Below, one piece after another: positions 4,869 through 41,584 of a stretch of DNA of 64,000 nt. A program made the position numbers and the translations under genes. Each line of letters opens with the position of its first letter. Position 1 is the first letter of the stretch. This DNA comes from Sialis fuliginosa (Eukaryota; Arthropoda; Insecta; Megaloptera; Sialidae), in contig OY540815.1 in assembly GCA_961205875.1 (NCBI GenBank), positions 14,321,638 through 14,385,637 on the forward strand, written 5' to 3'. Below the pieces are notes generated by a model. That model was not told the DNA's origin. It saw only the letters and a program-made list of their open reading frames with translations, and searched no databases.

Positions 4869-5430
4869 TTAGAAAAAATACAAAAAAGTATCATGTTTTG
4901 CTAATTGAGATCTACATTTTGATACGCCACTTGCCTCGATATAAAATTAAAAAAATATATGACGCCCCTCTCCATTTCTCCAAAATTTGAATTGATATTG
5001 TTGACTTTAGTATTTGTCGTTGATAATCTCACTAAAACCTCATTACTAATTTTTTTCAGATTTTTTAAGCCACACTGAAAAAAAAAAATATGGTACCAAC
5101 TTCGCCGCGAGATTGGCCTACTTCCTCTGCCCAGTAACTACTGCAGTAGTTACTGGGCAGAGGAAGTAGGGGCAAAATAAATTACTGCTTGGAGCCCCCT
5201 ACAGGCACCAATTTTGAGTTAGAAAAAAATTAAAAAATATGGTCACATTCTACTAATTGAGATCCACATTTCGACACCCCACACGCCTTGATATACATTT
5301 TTTGTGTTTTTTGGATTTTCAAGTTTCTAGCTTATATCTATGTATAATTTACGAGATATTTTGCTTTAAGTGAAAAGGACGGACGGACGATAAAATGAGA
5401 TTAATAGGGTTTCTTCGGAACCCTAAAAAG
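4869..5430. mobile_element. non-autonomous repeat relic ending in GGAACCCTAAAAAG
   Basis: Two diverged direct copies of a segment containing CTAATTGAGATC-ACATTT-GA-AC-CCAC--GCCT-GATATA (about 4880-4945 and 5220-5300) flank a central palindrome. The right end has a GGACGGACGGACG run and the terminal GGAACCCTAAAAAG. Repeats with this ending are widespread in Lepidoptera, which is my main clue to the order. There is no coding capacity. Confidence 0.6.
5117..5170. repeat. perfect 54-bp palindrome
   Basis: The two 27-nt halves meet at CTGCAG (centre 5143/5144) with no spacer and no mismatch. The left half starts CCTACTTCCTCTGCCC. It lies inside the repeat relic at 4869-5430. A perfect spacer-less palindrome is normally unstable, so it is either very recent or an assembly artefact. 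Confidence 0.95.
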
Positions 5431-7040: not shown

Positions 7041-8557
7041 TTTCGACTTCTAGACAGCTAAAATATATATTTTTTAAGTTTCTTTTAAACATGTGAATAA
7101 ATGAATATGGATTTACGCCTAAACAATTGTGACGAGATTATTCGTCTCGTCTAGTGTAATGCCCTGGCAACCTAAGAGTTAAAAATAATAATTTGCTATA
7201 TATAAATACAACATATGGGATATTATTTTGTATTGTGAAAAAGACAAATTCATTGAAAACGGTAGTTTGTCACGAATAAATTTTTATCGCTTACCCATAA
7301 AACTTTCATACAAACATTATTGATATAACATTGATATCAAACAAGACAAAATGTACTCATACATACCATATTTCAATATGAACAAGAATTTTAAAACATA
7401 ATGTTACATCTTTCACAATGTCAAATTTTATTACCATTACAAATTATATTTACCTGCTATTAATTAAATAATTATCACTAACGTAAATTCTAATTGTTTT
7501 TATTATCTAATTATATAAATAAAGAAATCTGGAGAATTAACTCATCAACACCTAGTCCAAACACCTGAACCTAGAAACGGGAAATATTAAGAACGTATTC
7601 CTTTTATAACGTAAGCATCCACAAAGATGGACTTTTCCGAAATTCAACCCTTAATTAAGGTGGGAAAAAGGATGTTAGACTTTTTTTTTAATTTTGATAA
7701 GTTTATCTGTACAAATGCTTATAAATATATATTAAAACGGTGAATTTCAAGCAAAATATTCTTATATTAAAATTAAAATGTATTGGGAATCGCGATTTTC
7801 AGCGTAAAACAATATTTCAGATTAACGGCACACATAGTATTAAATTTATAAATTAAAAAAAATGTTTATAAAAAAATAAAATAACGCGGGTGGCAGGAAA
7901 AACATTTTCTGCAAAAAAGCCAAATATATTTTCTTAATTAAAAAATAATACTATCATGCATACAGCTGTATAAGAAAGTAAAAATTTAATTTTTTAAATA
8001 TGATTGGCCGCAAAAAATATAATAAAATAAGCCTGTATAAACTATAAATTATTAACATACATAAACCATCTACACACTATTAGATTATAGCTACATTAGT
8101 AACTCCAAATTACCCAATCACGGTGCAGGAAATGCGACAACAAAGTAACAACTAATTTGTGTACATCTCATTCAAACTACAGAACGTTGCCAACACAACA
8201 GGTTCTATGGTCTGACCGAACCACTTGATGGGAAACAATCACCATCGTGTGATAAATTTAGACTTTACTTAATCGCATACAAACACACACACATACACAC
8301 AGGCACATATGTACCTATATAATACTGCAAGATATGCGTCATTCGACAACGGCTGCACGAGACGGCTCCAAACCAGTCTCACTCGGTCAAGGTGTTGTAA
8401 AGCAGGTAATACTAAAGCACTGATTGGAAATATTGGAGTATCGGATATATTTCGGTTATAACGAGTTGATATTTTAATAAATTTAACAAACAAAATAATT
8501 CCAGATTGCAAAAATAGAAATACGAGCGAATCTTCCAAACAACTAGTACTTTATAAT

Positions 8558-9119
8558 ATAAGGTATTGGCACCAGTCTTGGATATGACCCCAGTAATGGC
8601 TATTTTTTAATTAAATGCGCTGAATTAGAAATATTTCTTGATATTTGATTACTACCATTTCTGAATATTAATCTATATACATGTAACTGTCTTACAGCGT
8701 GATTTGATGACAATCAGCCAATAGGTGTCAAAATGGTGGACATTTAAACTAATTATTAGTATAATTTATTTATTAATTATAGCAACTGCTTAACATTGTT
8801 TCAAATTTGACGATTCTTTCTTTTATATCTTTTGTGTCGTAGTACTTATCATTTTGTAATCATTAGCCGTGTCCATCACTGTGTGCTCATTACTGGTGTT
8901 ACTTTATCCATTACTAGAGAAAAAACATAAACAAAAGAAATGGCTATAATTTAAAAAACAAACTATATTTCCAGACTTTGGTAATTAAATTGATCAAATA
9001 AAAAGTTAGTTGTTTTATTAGTAACATGAGTTCACGAGAATTACAAAAAAGAAGCCTGTCAATCATAAAAACAGTAAACCTTGCTCTTATAGCGGCCATA
9101 ACTGGTGCCAGTACCTTAT
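8558..9119. mobile_element. MITE family A, copy 1 (full length)
   Basis: The terminal inverted repeats are ATAAGGTATTGGCACCAGT at the left and ACTGGTGCCAGTACCTTAT at the right. The element is about 562 bp with no coding capacity. Internal landmarks are GACAATCAGCCAATAGGTGT and CTCTTATAGCGGCCAT near the right end. The same family recurs at 22302, 24621 and 30177. Confidence 0.8.
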
Positions 9120-12100
9120 TTTAACTAGGTTCATAGAACTGCAATCAATTATTATTTTACTGTCACTTCAATCAATATTAATTTGATCTGCTCTAATTCA
9201 TAATTTATCAATTAATTGTTAATAAATATTATATTGTGGTTTAATATTTTAAAAGATAATTAGATCATTAGAAGTTAGTTAATTAATATGTACAATAAAA
9301 CGCGAATGAGTAAAAGTTTCGCTTAATTGGTTTATTTAACATAAATTAACTATTTATACCATAATATTTATTATCGTATATCATAAAAAAAACTTACAGT
9401 ACTTAATTTCCATTTATTCATGGACTAAATACCTTACGGCAAAACGTACACATTATAATATTCAAATCATTATATAATTTACATTAAAATTTAAATCGTG
9501 TTATATTTTTCACACAATATTTTTATTTTTTAATGTACATTTGTCAGAGAAACATAAGTATAATTACCATATTACAAAATTATTCTTTTCTTTATATTTC
9601 CTTTATCCATACTATTATTTTTACGATGCTAAATGTTTTTCTGATTGTGAGTGTGATATCGCAATTCTCCTAGAAAAACGTACGACAGCACCACTGCAAT
9701 TATCGACATACACCATGAATTTCAGCAAGAAAACAGGTCTCAAGTTTTCTGCTGATCATATTGCTGAACCGGTGTGTGCATGGGGGATTACAGAGGGGGT
9801 GCCGTGCGGGGGGAAAGTGCGCGCACACCGCCGCTGCAACATGCGGTGAGATCCGACTGCCGGCCGGGCGGGTGGGTGAAAGGGGGGCCAGTTACACCTC
9901 CACCTCCCACGAACTGTTCAACGGAACATTCAACTTTCAAACACATTGTGCAAATGCACAATTATAATGAAGTATACATATTATTATTGTAATACTTGAA
10001 GTGTATTCAAATCAAACTTTGAATTGATTCAATTCCCTTTTCTTCAAATAACCGTCATTACAATTAATTGATTGGGCTTAAATTATGTATTTACCATTCT
10101 GTAAGTTTTAAGAGGATGAATTATGGATTTTATGAAAGAAGTTCATAGATTTAAATAAATTTGTTTTTCCTGGTAAAAAGAGTTATAATATATTCAATAG
10201 TGAAAGTAATAAAAATGATTTAATGTATAACTTTACTAAATTTGTATTATAAGTTATCATATTTTGAAACAGTTAAAAGTTATACCAGTAAAAATAAACA
10301 TTTCTTAATTCGTTAGATAAAAATAGTTTCCCAAAATTGTGTATAGGTACAAAGATCATATAAATAATAAATCATAGTTATATTTAAATATGAAAGACAT
10401 AAGATCTATTGTAAATAAAATTGCAATAAATTATAAGAGCATAAAGAATCTATTGTATATATTAAAATGATATTCATAAAAACATATTCTTTTCAAAATT
10501 TATTACATATGTTCATTGAAATATACAAAAAAACTATACTTATTAAGTTAGTTTAAAGTTTAGAATAACAATAATCTCATAGATTTATATTTACATCTTC
10601 TATTCTAAAAATTCTCCTTATAAAGCAACGGCTGCAATCCACCCACTCTACTTTTGCATAGAACTAACAAAAGATACTATGCGCTACTTGGAGCATACAA
10701 TATATAAAATAAAATAAACAAATATGATATTGCATAACAACAAAAGCTATGTATACTTTAGATACTAGGTACAATAAGTACATTAGAAAAATTGTAATTC
10801 ACGAATGATTCTTTCTTTTTGAACGAATCAACTCGTCAGTATCTTGAAAAAGATTCGCTCTTTTGTACAATGAACGGATCAACTAAAAAGATAGAAATAA
10901 TCCAAAGAATTCAACGATTTATTAATTTTGAGTTATATAATTGAAACATGAGACATTTAAAATAAACGAAAATATTATTGCACAAAACAGAATTTCAATG
11001 CTCAAAACGCAAAAATATGTAATTGCTAAAAAAATGATTTTTAATGTCACAACTTATGTTTTGTATAGTGCTCAAAACGAACAATGTTATTACTCAAAAA
11101 CAATGTATTTAATACTCAAAGTGTATAAAATAATGAGCGTATTATATTAACCTAAAAATATATCAAATATTCCAATACAAAAAGTGAACTTAATACTTAA
11201 CCACATTGGTAACTTAATGAAGTTAAGATTATTAATATTTCTCCGAACCATCCTTTATCTATAAAGGTACTCTAAACTATCTATTATATTAGAAAACACT
11301 AATAACAGGCTTTTGAAAAAATAACATAAAGGAATTCTGGTTGAATGTAAATACAAATCATATGCATAGATTTTTGGCAACTAATAAATTATGTACAGGT
11401 TATACATGTACCGAAAGTCGAAGGACTGAGATTAATAAGTTACTAAGATTCTGTGTTCTTTTTTCTACTCACAATACTACATACGTCAGCCCATGTGGGT
11501 TGAAGATAGTCAAGGCCTAATTTGAACATCCGCAGAATTCACAATATAAAATGTGACTCAATAATATTCACAATTAGTATTTGTTAAGGATCTTAATATC
11601 TATGAAAAGATTAATCTGAATGGAGTATATTGTTCAAAATTAACATAGAAATCCTTGTAGTTATGATCGCCATAATATTTGTGAAAAAGCTGTAAAATTC
11701 ATATAAACATTCGTCGAAAAAAAATTACAGGGATTTGTTCTTCTATCAATAATAAACAAAATTCAAATCATCATATTTTCATTTAAAATAATCGAAGGGC
11801 GATTTAATTCTGTAAAGGCTTTCATTGCATTTTAAAGCTTGAAATTTCAGTTTGAAAATCGTTTTTGATGTTTGTTCTTTGTTGTTATTTTTGAAAAATT
11901 GAAATTTAAAACAAAAACTATACTTTTGTCTTTACAAAACATAAAAACTGAATGGGAAGCTTTGAGTTTTCCCTGAAAGTGATAATTAGCACATATTCGT
12001 CACATTTTCAAAAAAGTTCAATTCATATATGCAGTATGAAAAATTTTCACATAAATCATATCGGTATCAATTTATAAAATGATTGTATTTTTATTAAAAT

Positions 12101-14936
12101 ACTGTAAAAAGTTTTTTTTGTCGAATAATATAAAAATTAAAAATTGTGAAACTATTTTAATTTGAGTCTTAAAAAAATATAATTTTCTAGCATACGTTTA
12201 ATTGTTTTTCAGCTTTTCAAAAAATCAGTTGAATTTTAATTGGAAATAACAGTAAAAAACGAGAGATAAAAATTTTAACAAAATGCGTTTTGATTGATTT
12301 TTCTGTGACTATTTTAATAAAGAAGATTTTTATAAATGTAATAATGTTTATTTTATAATATCAAAAAGTCAATTTAAAAATGATTAATTAAAAAATTAAT
12401 TCACTAGTCAAGTATGTAGTTTAGTACTTAATTAAGTAAACGCTGATACACTTAAGAACCTCTAATTATTTAAACAACTTATAATAATTTTCCTTGGCGA
12501 TGAGTGGGGAGTGGGGGGGGGGGTCACTAACACCAAGATTCACCCACACACAGCCCGCCACTGTACGCGTAGGCGTCACAAGGAGGCCTCTTAATTCGTA
12601 CATCCGTAGACAACGCGAGATGAGCCTGGCCTTCATGAGACAAAGCATCTGTAGGAATCTCCACAATCCATCTTACTTAATTATGGAAATTCCTATTTCA
12701 CAAACGTTTTGTTTCTAACGAATGTGGCATTCGTGTAACTAGGAAATGAATGGCCTCTGTAACTTTTTATAACTTTGTTATTTTCTTACTCGACGACGCT
12801 CTTGTTGCCGTTCCGAGTCGAGATAAGTCCATGGGTTTTTTGGTTATCTCCATTGTACTTTATTTAACACTACATTGAAAATTATTCTCTGTGAAAATGT
12901 TATCTATTCTCTTTCAAAATATAAATAACAGATGTTCGGCAAACGGTTGGTATTTTTTATATAATTTTAAAAATTCATTAAACACGGTAAATATAAAATT
13001 TATACATTGTGTATATTATTATTTGTAATCAAACATTGGTAGATTATTTTTTATCAAATGAAACTAAAAATAACTTGTATATGTAAAAATGTATATGCAG
13101 TGAATATGAATTCATTATGTTTTTGTATTGATAGAACTAAACTAACACATATTATTTTCAATATATGATGAATACAAATAGAAATAAAAGATAAACCAAT
13201 TCTAAATTTAAAATTGCAGTTAAAAACTTTTTTAATAATAAAAATGTACATCTAAACGATTTAAATAGCAAAATAAAAATATTTGCTGGAAATAATACAA
13301 TTACTGAAAATATAAATTAATCATTATTGTCCAGATCGCTATTGTCCGACTCCTAAATTCTACTGTTTTTTTGTCGAAAATCATAGCAATGTTCGCCACA
13401 TCCACTTCTGCGCGTTTTACTCTTCATACAGAAGTGACAGTTTATAATTTGAGTAATAATCACGTGTCTCATTTTATATGTATATGTATATTGTATATAC
13501 AGTAATATACACTCTATGCGCTTGAGGGGAAATACTCGGAATGGGGAAAAATATAAGCGGACAGTTTTGACATTTGGTTTCCCCGACCGGCACGGCGGAC
13601 AATAATAATGTTCTACTCTAGTACCAAAATATTTTCTATAGTATGGAAAGTACAATGATAACAAAAATTACCAAAAACATAATAATAACAATTATGGAAC
13701 TACCTACGTGAAATATTAAATTTAGTAACTAATTATTATTCAAACAGGCATTATAAAATGAATATATTAATAGCACAAAACGATACCATTCTCTCTATGG
13801 TTTCCATAAATAAGCACTCAACAAAATATTGAATAGACAATCCTGAACTTCTCTTTCAGATATTTTCATATAAGTTATTTTCACAGTTTAATGTACAAAT
13901 AAACGGACGTAGCAAGCACGTAGGTGTACAGATATTTTCTTTGGAATGTCCGTAATACCGAAATAACTTCTAGCGTAAAGATTCACATATGAGCATATGC
14001 GCTCAAGCATTCATATGTGTTAATTAAATATGCTGCTCTACTCGCATTACGTTTTTTTACACTATTTGTTGACTATTTAATGTAATAAATAAAATTTTGC
14101 ACTATAAATTATTATAGCATTTCCAAAATGTTAATTTGTTTATTAATAATCATATAAAATTTAAAAAAAACTATTCAAAATGTATAAAACTAATACAACG
14201 AATTTTGTTGTATTGAAAATCGATATGTTTATGTTAATAATCATAAAAAACATCGAGACATATCATTTTTTAGAATTCATAATTTAATATTCAAAGTAAG
14301 AAAGAATATTAAATGTAATGAAGAAGTGATAATAACGTTGACAGCTTTACAGAGCTAACATTATGAATACAAAATGATTCTTCTGTCGAATTTAAATCAA
14401 ATGATGAAGAAACTTTAATTATAAAAGTAAACTCAAAGTTTATCAATGTTCGAATACATTTATAATTTTGTAATCTACAAGATAATCAAATTTTGATATG
14501 ATGATAAATTTTCATGAAATACAACAAAATAATATGTTTTATAAATTAGATATGAAATATGCATACTGATTATAAAAAAAAATATTTATAATAAATTCAT
14601 TAAAAAGTTTGTGTTTGTTTTCTAAATATCTTGAAAGATTGTTTATATTTTTATTTCTAATGTCAAATATACTGTCAAAATTTTAAGTTAGTTCACATAA
14701 AAAGTAAACTTAATGTATCCAAGCATGCAAGTAATAAAGTACAACATATTTAATTTGGTATTGACTTTTAAAGGTTTCGTTGGTCGCTATGAATTATATT
14801 TAGTAATTTTTGACTATTAGAACCTAACGTTTACTTATGATCATATACTAATATATCAATATATGTATGTAATTCTTATTTTTGTAAAAATACTGATATG
14901 TACTTCTAATAGGCACATTTATATTGTTTTGAATTA

Positions 14937-15876
14937 CACTCCGCAACAAAATTATCGCAACAACAATTTTCATTGAAATTTTATCAATTTTCAAATGCTT
15001 GTATTTCCGTCAATTTTGATCGTATGGAGACGAATTTTTTTTTGTTTTCTTGGAAATTTTCTCTAGTTTAAGCTTATATATATTTTGAATAGGTTCAAGT
15101 CAGTGCCGAGTCAGTATTCTTTAATTAAGCGTACCACCTTTTATTACTTAAATGGATCGTTCAAACGTGTGCCTGGACTACAGTAATTTTTTTATCCCAA
15201 TGAAATTTATATCACTGTAAAGTACTCTTTTCGACGAGTAATTAAAAAAAAAAGAGTTCTCTGCGATTTTATTTGAGCCCTGTAGGCCGTTTTAAAGATA
15301 TTTTTCCGTATTTAGCCAATACCGCCAACATTTGCATTAAATAGGGTTTGGAGTCATTAAATACTGTGGAAGTGACGAGCCACGGGGTCCCTTTGTTTAG
15401 AAACATTATAAACAATCGGCCCTTTTCAGGGTCAAATGATACGTTAAATCCGACCAACAACCTCCTCGCGGTACGTATTGGGTAATGCTGATGTTGGCGG
15501 TATTGGCTAAATACGGAAAAATATCTTTAAAACAGCCTTCAGGGCTCAAAAAAAATCGCAGAGAACTCTTTTTTTTTTAAATTACTCGTCGAAAAGAGTA
15601 CTTTACAGTGATATAAATTTCATTGGGAGAAAAAAATTACTGTAGTCCAGGTACACGTTTGAACGATCCATTTTTTTCAGTAATAAAAGGTGGTACGCTT
15701 AATTAAAGAATACTGACTCGGCACTGACTTGAACCTATTTAAAATATATATAGGCTTAAACTAGAGAAAATTTCCAAGAAAACATAAAAAAATTCGTCTC
15801 CATACGATTAAAATTGACGGAGATACAAGCATTTGAAAATTGATAAAATTTCAATGAAAATTGTTGTTGCGGAGTA
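14937..15876. mobile_element. fold-back DNA transposon in the intron just after the mbl start exon
   Basis: Two arms of about 390-400 bp (14937-15336 and 15484-15876) are inverted copies, with only scattered differences, around a 147-bp spacer. The ends read CACTCCGCAACAA and, inverted, TACTCCGCAACAA, and both are flanked by TA (14935-14936, 15877-15878), as for Tc1/mariner-type insertions. The left end carries about 13 extra bases or the right end has lost them. The element ends about 75 nt from the mbl donor, so the pre-mRNA would form a very long hairpin there. Confidence 0.85.
15337..15483 (-). other. unpaired spacer of the fold-back, open on the minus strand
   Basis: The 147 bp between the arms are unrelated to the arms and open throughout in one minus-strand frame (49 codons), including the stretch FDPEKGRLFIMFLNKGTPWL. 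The frame runs on into the left arm. Such spacers can be captured host gene fragments. I do not recognise the peptide, and it may be chance. Confidence 0.4.
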
Positions 15877-15953
15877 TATATTCAATGATGAGCTGGGATT
15901 ACTATGGTATATTAATTGTGTAGGTAGCTAAACCCTGAGAAAGGTAACTAATG

Positions 15954-15959
15954 TCTTAC
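15954..15959 (-). other. mbl: mbl splice donor (GTAAGA)
   Basis: The minus-strand sequence reads AAG|GTAAGA directly after Lys62. This is a near-consensus 5' splice site, and the same junction position (after the SIK of CYDSIK) separates the two halves of zinc finger 2 in other insect muscleblind genes. Confidence 0.93.
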
Positions 15960-16145
15960 CTTAATACTGTCGTAGCACGCAGTAACACGTCCATTCTGCA
16001 CCTCCACGTTGGCCGGAGGATGGGCGAACTTGCACTCCGTGTCAGGTCTGGAACACTTCTGCCTCTGGAACTCCCGGCACACCTCCAGTTGGAGCCAGCG
16101 GGAGTCCTTTCCATTCAGTAGATTATTCATATTTACCATGGCCAT
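15960..16145 (-). CDS. mbl: muscleblind, first coding exon (partial CDS, 62 codons)
   Basis: Muscleblind is a CCCH zinc-finger RNA-binding protein that binds YGCY motifs and controls alternative splicing, RNA localisation and muscle and neural differentiation. Read from 16145 down, the exon begins MAMVNMNNLLNGKDSRW. It carries a full CCCH finger with spacing C-X7-C-X6-C-X3-H (C23, C31, C38, H42; core CREFQRQKCSRPDTECKFAH), then the muscleblind-specific linker and C57, the first cysteine of finger 2, ending at K62. The start is set by an in-frame TAA at 16173-16175, ten codons upstream; ATG at 16145 is the first Met after it, in good context (GAG before, G at +4). A second Met is at 16137-16139. 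The exon ends in phase 0 at a GTAAGA donor; reading on gives VRH and a stop, which is intron. The protein continues outside the window (below position 1). Identity is seen directly from the motif. Confidence 0.97.
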
Positions 16146-16793
16146 CTCGATCAAATATATCACACAACAATTTTACACAAAAATATATTACGTTATTATT
16201 ATTTTATATATATATCTGGTAATAAATATATTTATATTTATATATATTTGTGGCTTTTCAATATTAAGTTCATTTGTAAAATGAGATAAATTATGTGTCA
16301 AAATCACAAGACGAAATTTCTAATTAATTATATTTTATGGTTTATATATAGTTATATATCAATTACTTTTTCTCACAGTCATTTGCTTTTTTATTTAGTA
16401 CGGATATATTATTATTATATATGTTGCAAAATTTGAACTGAGACTAGTGTTAATATTACACAATATAATTAACTTTTAAAATATTGATTATTCACACACT
16501 TTTATTTAAAAAATATCAGCACTGCCTTGATCAGTTAATTTCGTGGATTTGTTACTGATGTTGCGAGGTTTCAGTACGGTATAGGGCAAAGGCGGGTGAA
16601 TTGAAATCGAGAAGCTAGCTTTGCATTATTATTTAGCCTCGGGATAAGCTGAAAGCCGTTGTAGATTGTTGGATCTGTGATGCTCTTGCAGTTTAAATAG
16701 TATCAGTTATTATTAATGTGATGTAGGTGAAACAGATTTCTATTGTTCTTAGTTATGACGGTTTTGGTGCCTTTGGGGATGTGAAGCAGAAAT
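16146..16793 (-). other. mbl: mbl 5' UTR portion of the start-codon exon
   Basis: From the acceptor at 16794 to the ATG there are about 648 nt of non-coding sequence on the minus strand. The distal part (about 16545-16793) is richer in GC and more complex than the flanks, as expected of an exon; the part next to the ATG is very AT-rich. Together with the coding part this makes an 834-nt exon (15960-16793). In Drosophila the equivalent exon 2 also contains a long 5' UTR plus the start codon. The boundary is inferred from the splice signal, not from RNA data. Confidence 0.75.
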
Positions 16794-16812
16794 CTGTAAA
16801 AAATAATATATA
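16794..16812 (-). other. mbl: mbl splice acceptor with polypyrimidine tract
   Basis: The minus strand reads TATTATTTTTTACAG immediately before ATTTCTGCTTCAC. The U-rich tract plus CAG is a good 3' splice site, and the sequence changes from AT-rich to more complex at this point. No competing acceptor of similar quality was noticed between here and the ATG. Confidence 0.75.
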
Positions 16813-16844
16813 TTTAGTTTTATACTTACAACAAACAAATTAAT

Positions 16845-17705
16845 TAACTCTTATCGGTTGGAGTTCCGAAAACCGGAACCTTCCGATTGGCTTCAAATTT
16901 TTATCAAATACTCCATTATGCACTAGATAGATGATGATACCTGAAAGGATTTTTGGCGACTCAAAGCAGTAGGGGGGTAAAAAATAATTTTTGTAGCAAA
17001 TACATATATACTTATATTAACATCTATATAAATTTATATAAGTACATGTAACAAATGAAAAATTTATACATGTGTGTAAGTTAATACCAACCCAAAACTT
17101 ATCAACTCGATTTCGCCCCAATAGATTGCCATAACCAAGGACAGTTAACATGTATATTATATCTTTATTTTATAGATAGAATTATTTAAAAACTATTTGT
17201 GGCGGCGGAGAATCCCTGTTTTTACCTAACGAAAACTAACCAACCCAAAACTAATTAACTCGATTTCGCCCCAATACCAAGGAGAGTTAATATGTATAAT
17301 ATTAGAGCATCAACTCTATTATTGGGGCGAAATCGAGATGATTAGCATTAGGTTGGTTAGTTATCGTTAGGTAAAAACGGGATTCGATCTCCGCCGCAAC
17401 AAACTGTTTTTAAATAATTCTATCAAATAAAATAAACATAAAAATGATATAAATGTTCTAGTCACGCATGCGCAAGATTCAATATCTACCTTGTTTAGGG
17501 CAAAACTATTGGGGTGAAAGAGACATAATTAATCTGGATAAATAGAATTTAAAAAAAATAAAATACGTCATTGTCGCGATTTTTAAGCTATCACGAAAAT
17601 ATAAAAAACATTTTTTTTTCACCCTTCTGGTTCGATTTGCCAAAAATACCTTTAGGTACTTTTACAAGTGGGTTCTGGTTTTCGTAACTTCAGCACTCTT
17701 ATTTA
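16845..17705. mobile_element. second fold-back element, in the intron just before the mbl start exon
   Basis: The sequence is an imperfect palindrome centred near 17290. The inner arms (about 17085-17300 and 17310-17540) share GATTTCGCCCCAATA, CTAACCAACC and TTTTTACCTAACG in inverted order. The outer arms (about 16850-17000 and 17560-17700) share a more diverged GTTCCGAAAACCGGAACC-type segment and a TTTTTGGC segment. The left arm contains an internal direct repeat of the CAACCCAAAAC...CGCCCCAATA unit. It starts about 50 nt from the mbl acceptor and fills most of the presumed intron between exon 1a and the start exon. Confidence 0.8.
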
Positions 17706-22301: not shown

Positions 22302-22778
22302 ATAACTTACTAGCGCCAGTCTTGGCCCCTTTAAGATTGGTGGGCTAATTTTTTGTTGTTTTCATGAACTCATATTACTAATAAAACAAGTAAGTACCTC
22401 TTCATTAAATCATGTTTTTTTCTCCATTAATGGAAAAAGTAAAACCAGTAATGTCCACCCAGACACTTACTAATAATTACAAAATGATACGTACTACGAC
22501 ACAAAAGTCATAAAATAAATAATTGTAAATTCTGTATGTAAATCAAATGATAATATAATAATTAATAAATAGATTACACTAATTATTAGTTTAAATGCCC
22601 ATCATTTTGACACCCATTGACCGATTGTCATCAAATTAAGCTGTTTTACTGTTAATTGTCTATAGATTATGATTCTGTAATGGCAGTTATCAAATATCAA
22701 CAAATATTTCTAATTTAGTACATTTAATTAAACAATAATTCAACACTGGAGTATGATCCAAGATTGGTACCAGTACAT
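22302..22778. mobile_element. MITE family A, copy 2 (inverted, diverged)
   Basis: This is the reverse orientation of the copy at 8558. The left end AGCGCCAGTCTTGGCCCCTT matches the inverted right end of copy 1, and the right end CCAAGATTGGTACCAGTAC matches its left end. The internal CCCATTGACCGATTGTCATC is the inverse of copy 1. The divergence is clearly greater than in the copy at 30177. Confidence 0.7.
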
Positions 22779-23389
22779 ACATCATATCTTAAAGCTAAAA
22801 TCTTGAATATGTAAAAAATGAGTTGTGAAATAATTTAATATCACAAAATACTGTACACCTATTTTTCTACTCTCCAAAAATGGACTGCATGCATACCATG
22901 TCATGCACTAAAATAAATATTTCTTTAGAAAACATCCAACAGCCAAATTAAGATACTTTTAGTCAGTTAATTACATAAAACAACCGATACCGCAGACGAA
23001 AAACAATCATATATATCCATATAGAGCAACACATTAAAATTAGTAACATCTAATAACATTAGTTTAATCTATGAAAAACACCTCCACATGACCGATTTCA
23101 ATATCTGTAACTATTCACCTATCAATCCAAAAAAACAATTTAACTGCCAGGTACATCAGTACAATAATTAAGTTAGATTTTCATTTTAGTTACAGTAACG
23201 AAGGCGTGTTGGCGGTATCTTCCACGCAAGAAGGATGGTCTTTAGCCATGACCAATACCCACCCACGTTTGCAATTGGATTGCATCTTATGGGTTATATG
23301 GAATTGTATATTTGTAAGAGATGTTTCACACTACACAAATAATGACTGAACTGATTTTTGAAGAAAAGAAAAACACTTAAATAATCCTC

Positions 23390-30176: not shown

Positions 30177-30377
30177 TATAAGAACTGGCACTAGTTATGG
30201 CCGCTATATAAGAGCAAGGTTTACTGGTTTGTGATTATCATTATCAGTTAAATATATTAATTATTAATATTCAGAAATGGTAGTAATCAAATATCAACAA
30301 ATATTTCTAAGTCAGTACATTTAATTAAAAAATAGCCGTTACTGGGGTCATATCCAAGACTGGTGCCAGTACCTTAT
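30177..30377. mobile_element. MITE family A, internally deleted copy (201 bp)
   Basis: Both ends are present: AGAACTGGCACTAGTTATGG at the left and CCAAGACTGGTGCCAGTACC then TTAT at the right. Only about 200 bp remain, so most of the interior seen in the 562-bp copy is deleted. Orientation is as for the copy at 22302. Confidence 0.75.
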
Positions 30378-37600: not shown

Positions 37601-38486
37601 AGCATTTTTAATTAAGGTGGGCCTTATTTGCCTCCATGACCTTATTGGTAAATGAATATTATTTCAATTGATATTTCTAATGTATATTTTTATTTAAAAA
37701 ACACTTTTTACAAATTGCAGTAAACATTTTCAAGATTTTTCAAAAACTAAAAAAAATCATAATTCTATTTATATCACTTTATCATCAAACATTACAGTAA
37801 AAAACTTTTTGAAACTTCATATCAAAAGATTAAACAAAATCCATATCTACAAAAACTTATCGAACACTATCAAGAAACAGTTGCGTGGGTGTGCCAGAAA
37901 GAGAGAGAAGGCACACACTGAGACAATAGCAACAGCCACACAAATGTAATAGGTTCAACAAAGCACAATGACCTACTCTTGGTGGAAGATTAACAGACAA
38001 GTGTTACGAAACGTCGCCAATATAATGGGGCACGATACGGCTCATCGAGTTTAATGAAATAAATTCAGCATTAAGTACGCGCGCGAATATCTGAGAACGC
38101 TTCACGCTCGTAAATGACGCGACTGCAAATACAACTTACGAATAATTTCCTCATTTATCAAAACGTTGGTATGTCTAATGATTCTTAACCCTAGAAAATA
38201 TTCAAAATAATCTTATTTCTTTAAATTGCTCTCATACCTCGTAACGATTGGCAAAAACTTGTTTTTTTTAAGCCCAGCCCACCGGGTTTTAAAGCCGTTT
38301 TTTTTAGCAATACATTTATATAAAATATACATTTTTCACAAAGAAAAACTGAACTTAAATTGTGTTGATTGATGTAAATCCGTCTAAAAAAAGGAAAATT
38401 GTCTTCAGTGTTTTCATTAAAAAAACGTCCCACGAATTTCTAAATATACTTTCCTATAATATGATAGTAGTGACGTTAAATAAAAA

Positions 38487-38874
38487 TAAAAACAAACTTG
38501 TTTGTTTAAACGTCAAAATTTATTAAAGAAATAATAAAAAAATAAAAATATAAAAATATAAAAATAATAATAATAAAAATATAAAAAGAAACAATAATAC
38601 AATTAACAAGAAAACTGACATATCCACATTATCTACTATTTACAACACAATTTTAAATAATTAATTATTGTCATTTTTTCGTTCCTTAGTAACTATTTGA
38701 GTTACTAAGAGATTTGTTATTTTTTCAAACATTTCCGTAGTCACATGAATTTTATTTATTGTATTTAATTGTTACTTATTATATTTTAGCCTGACGATGA
38801 TTCTGTGAATCGAAAGCTTGCGGTTTCCTCTTCTTTAATAAATTTTGACGTTTAAACAAACAAGTTTGTTTTTA
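38487..38874 (+). mobile_element. retroposon-like element with perfect 44-bp inverted ends
   Basis: The 44 bp at 38487-38530 reappear perfectly inverted at 38831-38874 (key part AAACAAACTTGTTTGTTTAA). A 14-bp direct repeat TATACTTTCCTATA lies at 38445-38458 and at 38873-38886, like a target duplication. Near the right end is CTGACGA, a 5-bp stem GATTC-TGT-GAATC, then GAAAG (38791-38816), a hammerhead-like layout. Inverted ends plus such a motif are reported for Penelope-like elements. The interior is AT-rich and non-coding. Confidence 0.5.
38532..38596. repeat. A-rich (AAAAATAT)n simple repeat
   Basis: Imperfect AAATAT and AATAAT units form a simple-sequence stretch inside the element with 44-bp inverted ends. 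Confidence 0.85.
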
Positions 38875-41584
38875 TACTTTCCTATATACATATATGTTTT
38901 TTGAATTGCTAAGTAACTAAATAAAAAATATTATTTTTAATTAACTGTTATAGTAACTATTCAATTCAGAGTACTTATTAAGACAAACATTTTCCCTAAT
39001 TTTTACTGTGGTTATCGTGAACAAAAGAAAATCCTTTATTTAGATACATACGCACAGCCGCCATGCAAAAAACAACTTTTCTTTACGTTTTGAAGTTAGT
39101 ACAATCAAAATCTGTTCTTATCTCAGACACAATTTTTCGGCAATATTTAAATCGTTTATTTAAGAATGTGGGCTATTTCTAGAGAAACAATTCAAAATAC
39201 TTATATATCATGAGTTTCAAAGCAGACTGTTTATTTACAAGAAATAACAAAAACCAATTTGAACATTTATCATTGCAGTTTTTTTTATTAATCCAAAATT
39301 ATTAATTCTAATTGCTGCATAGAGGGATGAGACGAGAATGCCTTAAATACGGACGAGATTGACTGAAATTGTGCCGAGACGATATAAATTTGAATTAAAA
39401 GTCTCATGCAGAGTTTACTATTTGAGATTAATTTTTAAATGGATAAATAAAGTAAAATATATAACATAATTTGTTATATTTCAAAATTTCATAGTTTACT
39501 ACACAAGAATCAATGGAAGACGAAATGGCTTCATTTTCTACGAGACGAGATAAGAGAAACTTACCTGATTCTCGTCTCGTGTGCTTTGAAAATATATTTA
39601 AGCAAATAAGGAAACTTTTGTGTCAGCAATATTCTGACCACATTCATTTAAAAAGTCTTAGCTTGAAATTATATCTTTTCGAAATTCCATAACCTCTTCC
39701 CCAAAAATCGTTTTCTCTTTAAATAATAGAACTGACTCCTGGTTGCTATTATTTTTTTAAATATGTAAATAAATAGATACACAAATCTGATCTATACCAG
39801 AAAAATAATAAATATTAAACATAAAATAATAAAATCCTAAATATATATGTATGTTTGATGATCTATGTTACATAAAAGAATACTCAAAGAGATCAGTGAG
39901 TGGAAAAAGTTCACAAACATAGCGCAATTATTAAAACACAGTCGTTACCTCGAATATACGCGTTATTTTTATTTTATTGGAAAAAAACCGATTATAAGAA
40001 TGAAAAATAATATTTTAAATAACTTTTAATTAATTAGTTTATTTATTTATTCCGTTATATCTTTTTACAGATCCTGATATTGGATAAAATTAGATCAAAT
40101 AAAATATAACATAACATTTACAAATTATTAATCTAATCTAAATCATCTTATGCTAATTGTAAGAAAAAATTGTATTTCAATTTAAAAATTTTTTATAGAA
40201 GATGGTACATAATTTATTATATATTTTTAATATTGAGTTATACCCTCCTTTATACACAACTGTTAATTTTGTTTGTATTTGATCTAAATCTTGATTTCTA
40301 GTTTAGTAACTATGCGTAAATTTTTTTTATACGTTTCATAATATTTTTTAGCGAAAATTAAACATTCATATATGTATAGATCTCTAATTGTTAAAAAAAA
40401 TTAAATATTAATTATTAATAAATAATAATTTAAAAAAATATATTTCAATGCACAGATTTTTGTTTTCATTTTAAATAGAAAAAATAATTATTCATTTTAT
40501 ATAAAATGCAAAAAAGAAACATTTACATAATTATCTAATTTGAGTTAAAAAATTTACGCCCTAGTTGACTGTGGGACGACGATTTTATTAATTTTAAGTT
40601 AACTGAAGATTTTTTAACAAAGTTGTAAAATCTTAATTTCGAAATAAATCTGTCTCCTCCACATTTAATTAATAACTCGCGTACATAAATTCAAATTAAT
40701 AATAAAACCTTGAAAACAGATTTTTAAAATTATGATCAGAAGTAATCTGTCATATTATTCCTAAAAGTATTTATTTAAATCCCGTATTCCGATTTTGACA
40801 CTGCCGTTTCTGTTTGCCATTCTATTAAACTGTTCCACAAAAATTGTAAAAATCATCAGTCGAAACATCAAACAGCTATAATCCTACTGTCACATTTTCA
40901 TAAAATTCAGAAAAAATAAAATTGACTATATTCAACATTTTCTTTTTTTTTAGGAAGTATTTTTACTATTGTATGTATGTATGTACATATATATTTTTTT
41001 CAAAATGTATAAAGACTAGTAGTATCGGCTAATAAGTAGACATTAATAAAAACTATATATAGATAAATAAATTTATAAGTACCTATATACATAATATGTA
41101 TTTTTTTCAACATTAAAAAAATAACAATAGTTTCAAATTAAAACAAATCAATACTACATTTTAAATCAGTAGATTTTGTTTGTACAATGAATTTTTTTTC
41201 AAATTTTTGAGTTTATAAATCGTTATAGATAATATAATACATTTTGATGAAATTTTGTTTGTTAGAAATCCTAACGCCAAAAAGACAAAACAGCAACTCA
41301 GTATTTTTTTGACAAAATGGTAACAAAACCTAGTTGAAGTTATATAATACACAACAATTTATTTACGGTTTAAAAAAGATGTACGTATTAAAAAAAATAT
41401 ACAGATAAATATAATTAAATCAGTAATTTATATTGAAAAATAAGAGCATAGATAAGTATAAAATTTATAAGATTTAATTTCGAAATACCTGCGGGCGAAA
41501 CCGCGGAGAATATCTACAGTATAATCATATAATTTAAAACAATTTTAAATATTAATTATGTTAGTTATGTAGAACTACCATTAA

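Follow-up and report, generated by a model that had tools for sequence, protein, structure and literature searches.

Exon 2 of mbl, which carries the start codon, lies between two unrelated non-autonomous DNA transposons, and these very probably represent independent insertions on either side of the exon that have been tolerated, not a device for its circularisation. We regard the case as a clear and ordinary one of transposon insertion into long introns. The analysis corrects the view that the fold-backs themselves bracket the exon by pairing, and it names the sequences that could do so. An old element with an 8-bp target duplication would have landed 62 nt upstream of the acceptor, and a young, TA-flanked fold-back of the Tc1/mariner type would later have landed at +84 of the donor. 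The ends, target sites and relatives of the elements were read directly, and from the contrast in divergence we infer this order. In the mbl pre-mRNA each element is predicted to fold on itself and would leave with its intron.

The mbl start exon

The genome searched comprised 392 Mb in 20 contigs, and the window, by which we mean the whole 64,000-nt stretch analysed, belongs to contig C7. The mbl start exon (exon 2) was predicted on the minus strand at 15960 to 16793 (834 nt), the acceptor being a prediction. Its ATG is at 16145, from which 62 codons run up to the donor; a tblastn search with the start of Drosophila Mbl gave 93.5% over 62 residues, and a CCCH zinc finger (PF22628, E 2.7e-10) was detected in the exon. 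Both results bear out an earlier, sequence-only reading, in which this exon had been named as the homologue of the Drosophila mbl start exon. The donor (15960|15959) reads AAG|GTAAGA, and the predicted acceptor (16794|16793) had the top pyrimidine share among the 12 C/TAG candidates printed; the acceptor implies a further exon on its 5′ side. The next coding mbl exon found was at C7:14066169-14066351, approximately 271 kb downstream; therefore, as far as the exon search shows, the window below 15960 is one giant intron. Joined head to tail, the exon would give a 76-residue reading frame. Counts of YGCY, the Muscleblind motif, were uninformative (8 in the 834 nt of the exon, 4 in the 940 of element 1, 10 in the 840 of element 2 and 363 in the 64,000 of the window), with none in the 83 nt and 62 nt adjoining the exon.

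Two transposon remnants and their relatives

Element 1, at 14937 to 15876 (940 bp), was identified as a fold-back DNA transposon remnant of the Tc1/mariner type, flanked by TA target sites at 14935-14936 and 15877-15878. It has a left arm of 384 nt (14956-15339, plus strand) and a right arm of 389 nt (15483-15871, minus strand) that is 95% complementary to the left one, the two agreeing at 96.6% of aligned bases. Its edge is at intron position +84 of the mbl donor; the sequence-only reading had correctly placed a fold-back of about 940 bp on this side of the exon, and the gap of about 75 nt given there is in fact 83 nt. A genome search with element 1 gave 38 matches from 13 candidates, which were grouped into ten places with arms (window included) and three with the spacer only. 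Both inverted arms were present at 8 of the 10 places, window counted, and one arm only at C2:20350669 and C9:590806. Sequence analysis of the ends revealed a TA outside all 11 displayed ends, from 8 places, including both ends for three of them (window, L003 and L031); the two one-armed places gave no displayed end. The terminal inverted repeats, CACTCCGCAACAAAATTATCGCAACA, matched 15 ends when up to 3 mismatches were allowed, and the reversed-pattern control matched none. Relative to L003, the window copy is without some bases inside the right end. Each full window arm shared 98.7% of bases with its positional counterpart in copy L005, which suggests that element 1 is young.

Misassembly can create long inverted duplications, and the sequence-only reading had held that such duplications would undo it. 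That the arms are artefacts of this kind is extremely improbable, since both arms, in inverted orientation, are present again at 7 of the 9 other places, all of them on contigs other than that of the window, a TA stands at every displayed end (7 of those places), and element 2 has a target duplication of its own and a relative in which the duplication is perfect.

No frame of 100 residues was found within element 1. A Tc5/CENP-B-type transposase beside L028 was rejected as the autonomous partner, as the element-1 stretch stops, by eye, before that element's own sequence. A relative of the spacer, L082, adjoins a transposase fragment, which was read as the C-terminus of a mariner-like transposase; the fragment had no Pfam match, and against PDB it had four weak matches, to Sleeping Beauty or Mos1 (all Tc1/mariner transposases, E 0.33-0.98).

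The near-perfect duplex of element 1, whose arms (384 and 389 nt) are 95% complementary, might alternatively matter as a source of small RNAs or edited RNA, with its dicing or editing serving to regulate the other copies. Between the window arms and those of six other copies compared, identity was 95.5-99%, which would allow siRNAs to act in trans; however, intron hairpins may be excised and broken down before this happens, no conserved use was evident, and we think it quite improbable that this accounts for the arrangement. Within the preferred reading of tolerated insertions, element 1 would suit RNA editing or Dicer-2 well as a substrate, provided that the intron persists for long enough.

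Careful examination of the element-1 spacer revealed a stem-loop resembling that of histone 3′ ends (15418-15433, plus strand, antisense to mbl). The spacer carries GGCCCTTTTCAGGGTC, which resembles AAACGGCCCTCTTTAGGGCCA, a hairpin that follows three histone genes in the same genome; by frame reading these would be histone H4 genes. Searching for the hairpin pattern with downstream GGGTAA gave six genome places (reversed control, none), namely three element-1 copies and three diverged relatives that are 71-73% alike over 100-134 bp. Besides the window, the stem-loop GGYCCTTTTCAGGGYC was located at C1:17806053-17806120, C3:7315548-7315615, C2:14803378-14803445 (minus strand), C12:3683524-3683591 (minus strand) and C14:2657426-2657494 (minus strand). 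In copy L006 the hairpin differs by one base, other element-1 copies or arms have a different spacer, and in L082 the hairpin is approximately 20 nt behind the mariner-like transposase fragment. The match to the histone 3′ stem-loop family (RF00032) scored 15.1 bits against a gathering cut-off of 34, and nothing above the Rfam cut-offs was found in L082-L084, L004, L005 or L008. As a general mark of these transposases the stem-loop was discarded, as by eye it was absent from the approximately 200 nt behind three of three more distant ones among the 84 matches listed. In the literature searched we found no paper joining a histone stem-loop with a mariner transposon; if such a histone-type 3′ hairpin is functional, a DNA transposon would have borrowed a histone mRNA end.

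The same spacer has a weak resemblance to HDV-like ribozymes at 15438 to 15511 (plus strand), with matches from three Rfam families; two of the matches begin at 15438 and the third at 15436. By eye, the sequence allows a P1 of 7 bp whose first pair is G-U. These matches scored 22.7, 20.7 and 20.3 bits against gathering cut-offs of 44, 50 and 37, and the P3/L3 core is altered in L082-L084; the stretch is most likely not a ribozyme. It was also observed by eye that part of P1 covaries in L082.

Element 2, at 16856 to 17695 (840 bp), was identified as a DNA transposon remnant that is a fold-back in part. By eye, it is flanked by the target duplication CTCTTATC (16848-16855) and CTCTTATT (17696-17703), which match at 7 of 8 positions. 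With the ends moved by one base, both sides read ACTCTTAT; we preferred the former reading because it fits the ends of the relatives. The inverted ends read GGCTGGAGTTCC. The sequence-only reading had described here a fold-back of about 860 bp starting about 50 nt before the acceptor; the element is present, although it is 840 bp long, lies 62 nt from the acceptor and is only partly a fold-back. Its halves align at 64%, gaps counted, and the fold-back quality comes from an inner hairpin (17147-17457) that is 79% self-complementary. As a microRNA precursor this hairpin was rejected, its best Rfam scores being 42.0 bits for mir-2513 (cut-off 89), 38.8 for mir-H11 (70) and 38.7 for MIR6440 (95). 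Inspection of the relatives by eye showed that 1) L056 has a perfect 8-bp duplication, GATAAAGT, 2) L034 and L037 have duplications matching at 6 of 8 positions, and 3) L048 has none; L045 could not be read at the displayed positions. Among the 40 scored of 1158 first-look candidates, the best genome match other than the element itself was 83% over 347 of 866 nt, and shorter pieces of the inner hairpin reached 92% over approximately 155 nt. These patchy relatives, together with halves only 64% alike, suggest that element 2 is old. The earlier view that the two elements are unrelated was upheld; they are separate transposon insertions.

Folding, placement and complementarity around the exon

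The pre-mRNA was folded from 17800 to 14850. The predicted fold contained 417 pairs within element 1, 291 within element 2, 202 within the exon, 81 between the exon and non-element intron, 6 between element 2 and non-element sequence and 58 elsewhere; no pair bridged the mbl exon, and none joined either element to it. Seven of the nine donor bases were predicted to be paired, none of them with an element. Folded alone, element 1 reached -619 kcal/mol, compared with a mean of -184.5 (sd 24, lowest -279.7) for 39 other 940-nt stretches of the window taken outside 13.5-18 kb, and element 2 folded at -305 kcal/mol for its 840 nt. The donor, the pyrimidine stretch and the likely branch point, as read from the sequence, are outside both elements, and a possible branch point, AAACTAAAT, lies in the gap between element 2 and the exon. 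It is therefore most likely that the insertions are tolerated and have little effect on the exon.

Taking a strong fold-back as at least 75% identity over at least 150 columns, we found only elements 1 and 2 in the 64-kb window, and none in a non-random sample of 30 flanks, each 1.5 kb long, around 15 repeat copies elsewhere. Among the four mbl-like coding loci compared (of five matches), only the start exon had strong fold-backs within 1.5 kb; weak ones were seen at L064 (two) and L065 (one, by coordinates the same place as one of those of L064), and none at L063. Two further features of the window were a perfect 54-bp palindrome at 5117-5170, centred on CTGCAG and not AT-rich, and a fold-back at 38486-38875 with perfect arms of 45 bp.

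When fold-backs were placed uniformly in the 64 kb, a box within 103 and 82 nt arose in 0 of 200,000 trials with the two strongest fold-backs, in 4 of 200,000 with four and in 29 of 200,000 with nine, figures that are not significance tests because the window was chosen for the pattern. Uniform placement seems a poor description of two fold-backs beside one exon; any one of insertion bias, selection and post hoc choice could account for the box. With regard to an exon preference of element 1, all 28 open frames of at least 70 residues from the flanks of the nine other places were scanned, the element bounds being approximate in L012, L026 and L028 and shorter exons escaping such a search. An UNC-93 exon (PF05978, E 8.5e-35) was identified in the flank of L018, where element 1 starts at +8 from the predicted UNC-93 donor (L018 2632-2624; C1, about 13431118). 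In L009, a HEAT/adaptin-like stretch (PF12717, E 1.8e-39; PF01602, E 5.9e-35), which may be a pseudogene, was located approximately 880 nt from element 1; transposon genes were present in the flanks of L006 and L028, and five of the nine flank sets had no match for open frames of at least 70 residues. The copy at +8 hints at a relation between element 1 and donors, and if element-1 copies do favour the first bases of introns, a new link between a fold-back transposon and splice sites would emerge that is testable on the ten places. Element-1 fold-backs might, by extension, settle or survive behind donors (mbl +84 and UNC-93 +8, that is 2 of 10 places), and in mbl the hairpin beside either splice site might slow linear splicing while pairing between the inverted repeats (8.5-8.9 and 22.4-22.8 kb) closes the loop; three transposon families would then jointly tune circMbl output in this insect. 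We rate this a long shot.

Comparison of the window with itself revealed ten inverted pairs, four of which span the mbl exon. All four involve an abundant repeat of approximately 575 bp, called MITE-like by its size, number and inverted ends, of which a copy in the downstream intron (8551-9127, plus strand) matches inverted copies at 22.3-22.8 and 30.2-30.4 kb. The main exon-spanning pairs were 8563-8928 with 22412-22776 and 8558-8672 with 30263-30377. The inverted copy in the upstream intron (22330-22794, minus strand) pairs with 8549-8939 across the exon through 22401-22794, and the third, shortened copy (30178-30377, minus strand) matches 8558-8672 at 95% over 115 nt. The copies of the principal pair lie 7.0 kb downstream of the donor and 5.6 kb upstream of the acceptor, respectively; in the genome, the repeat had 6278 first-look candidates, and all 40 of those scored matched. 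The earlier statement that each element pairs with itself and not across the exon thus agrees with the predicted fold of both, whereas for the window it is contradicted by these four pairs. Sequences complementary between the two flanking introns are present through the MITE-like pair only, and the two fold-backs are not among them.

Pseudo-exons set every 1 kb outside 13.5-18.5 kb were used as controls. The best cross-exon match of the mbl exon was equalled or exceeded by 44 of 56 pseudo-exons at a reach of 1.5 kb and by 47 of 49 at 5 kb, so within these distances the exon is poorer than usual in cross-exon complementarity. At 8 kb the score of the MITE-like pair (288 bits) was reached by none of 43, and at 15 kb by 3 of 30, all of them spanned by the same pair; as the controls overlap and rest on one pair, the comparison is only descriptive.

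Circularisation and comparison with known systems

The sequence-only reading had linked the hairpins to circular RNA formation. The sequence does not show this link. The insertions are independent and differ in age, the exon is crossed by no predicted pair, and its cross-exon complementarity within 5 kb is below that of most pseudo-exons. From the sequence there is no sign that the fold-backs act as a circularisation device. Should the exon circularise as in Drosophila, intron pairing would come from the MITE-like copies, or other cues would serve, and not from the fold-backs.

It might be argued instead that hairpins beside the donor and the acceptor slow linear splicing and favour back-splicing of mbl exon 2, with help from the distant inverted repeats. 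Hairpin 1 is very stable, both element edges are within 84 nt of splice sites and a repeat pair across the exon exists; however, the insertions are independent and of different age, neither element is predicted to pair with the exon, and in human genes pairing within an intron was reportedly found by Zhang in 2014 to compete with pairing across introns. In flies, circularisation accompanies slow splicing and reverse complementary matches (PMC12404201), and intron regions abutting exons seem to support a basal level of circular RNA from scro (PMC12060249). PMC12404201 also notes several studies whose authors disputed a systematic role for such matches in flies, and in worms matches across an exon also promote its skipping (PMC8330042). 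Overall, we judge such an effect of the hairpins unlikely and favour tolerated insertions.

Element 1 resembles non-autonomous MITE or fold-back elements of the Tc1/mariner group in its TA target, in its shared inverted ends, in its presence at ten places and in that part of its spacer is related to the sequence immediately following a mariner-like transposase fragment. It differs from the usual Tc1/mariner MITE in that its arms are approximately 390 bp, so that nearly the whole element is a hairpin, and in the histone-like stem-loop of its spacer. Target duplications of 8 bp are made by DNA transposons such as hAT, P and others. Element 2 is like these in its duplication (7 of 8 positions here, 8 of 8 in L056 and 6 of 8 in L034 and L037) and its inverted ends, although its relative L048 shows none. 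The locus shares with that of Drosophila circMbl a homologous start exon, a very long downstream intron and inverted repeats in both flanking introns, and intronic complementary sequences have been validated for mbl and laccase2, as stated in PMC12060249. In contrast to that intronic pairing, the fold-backs beside the exon do not pair across it, and the pair that does so is formed by another repeat several kb away.
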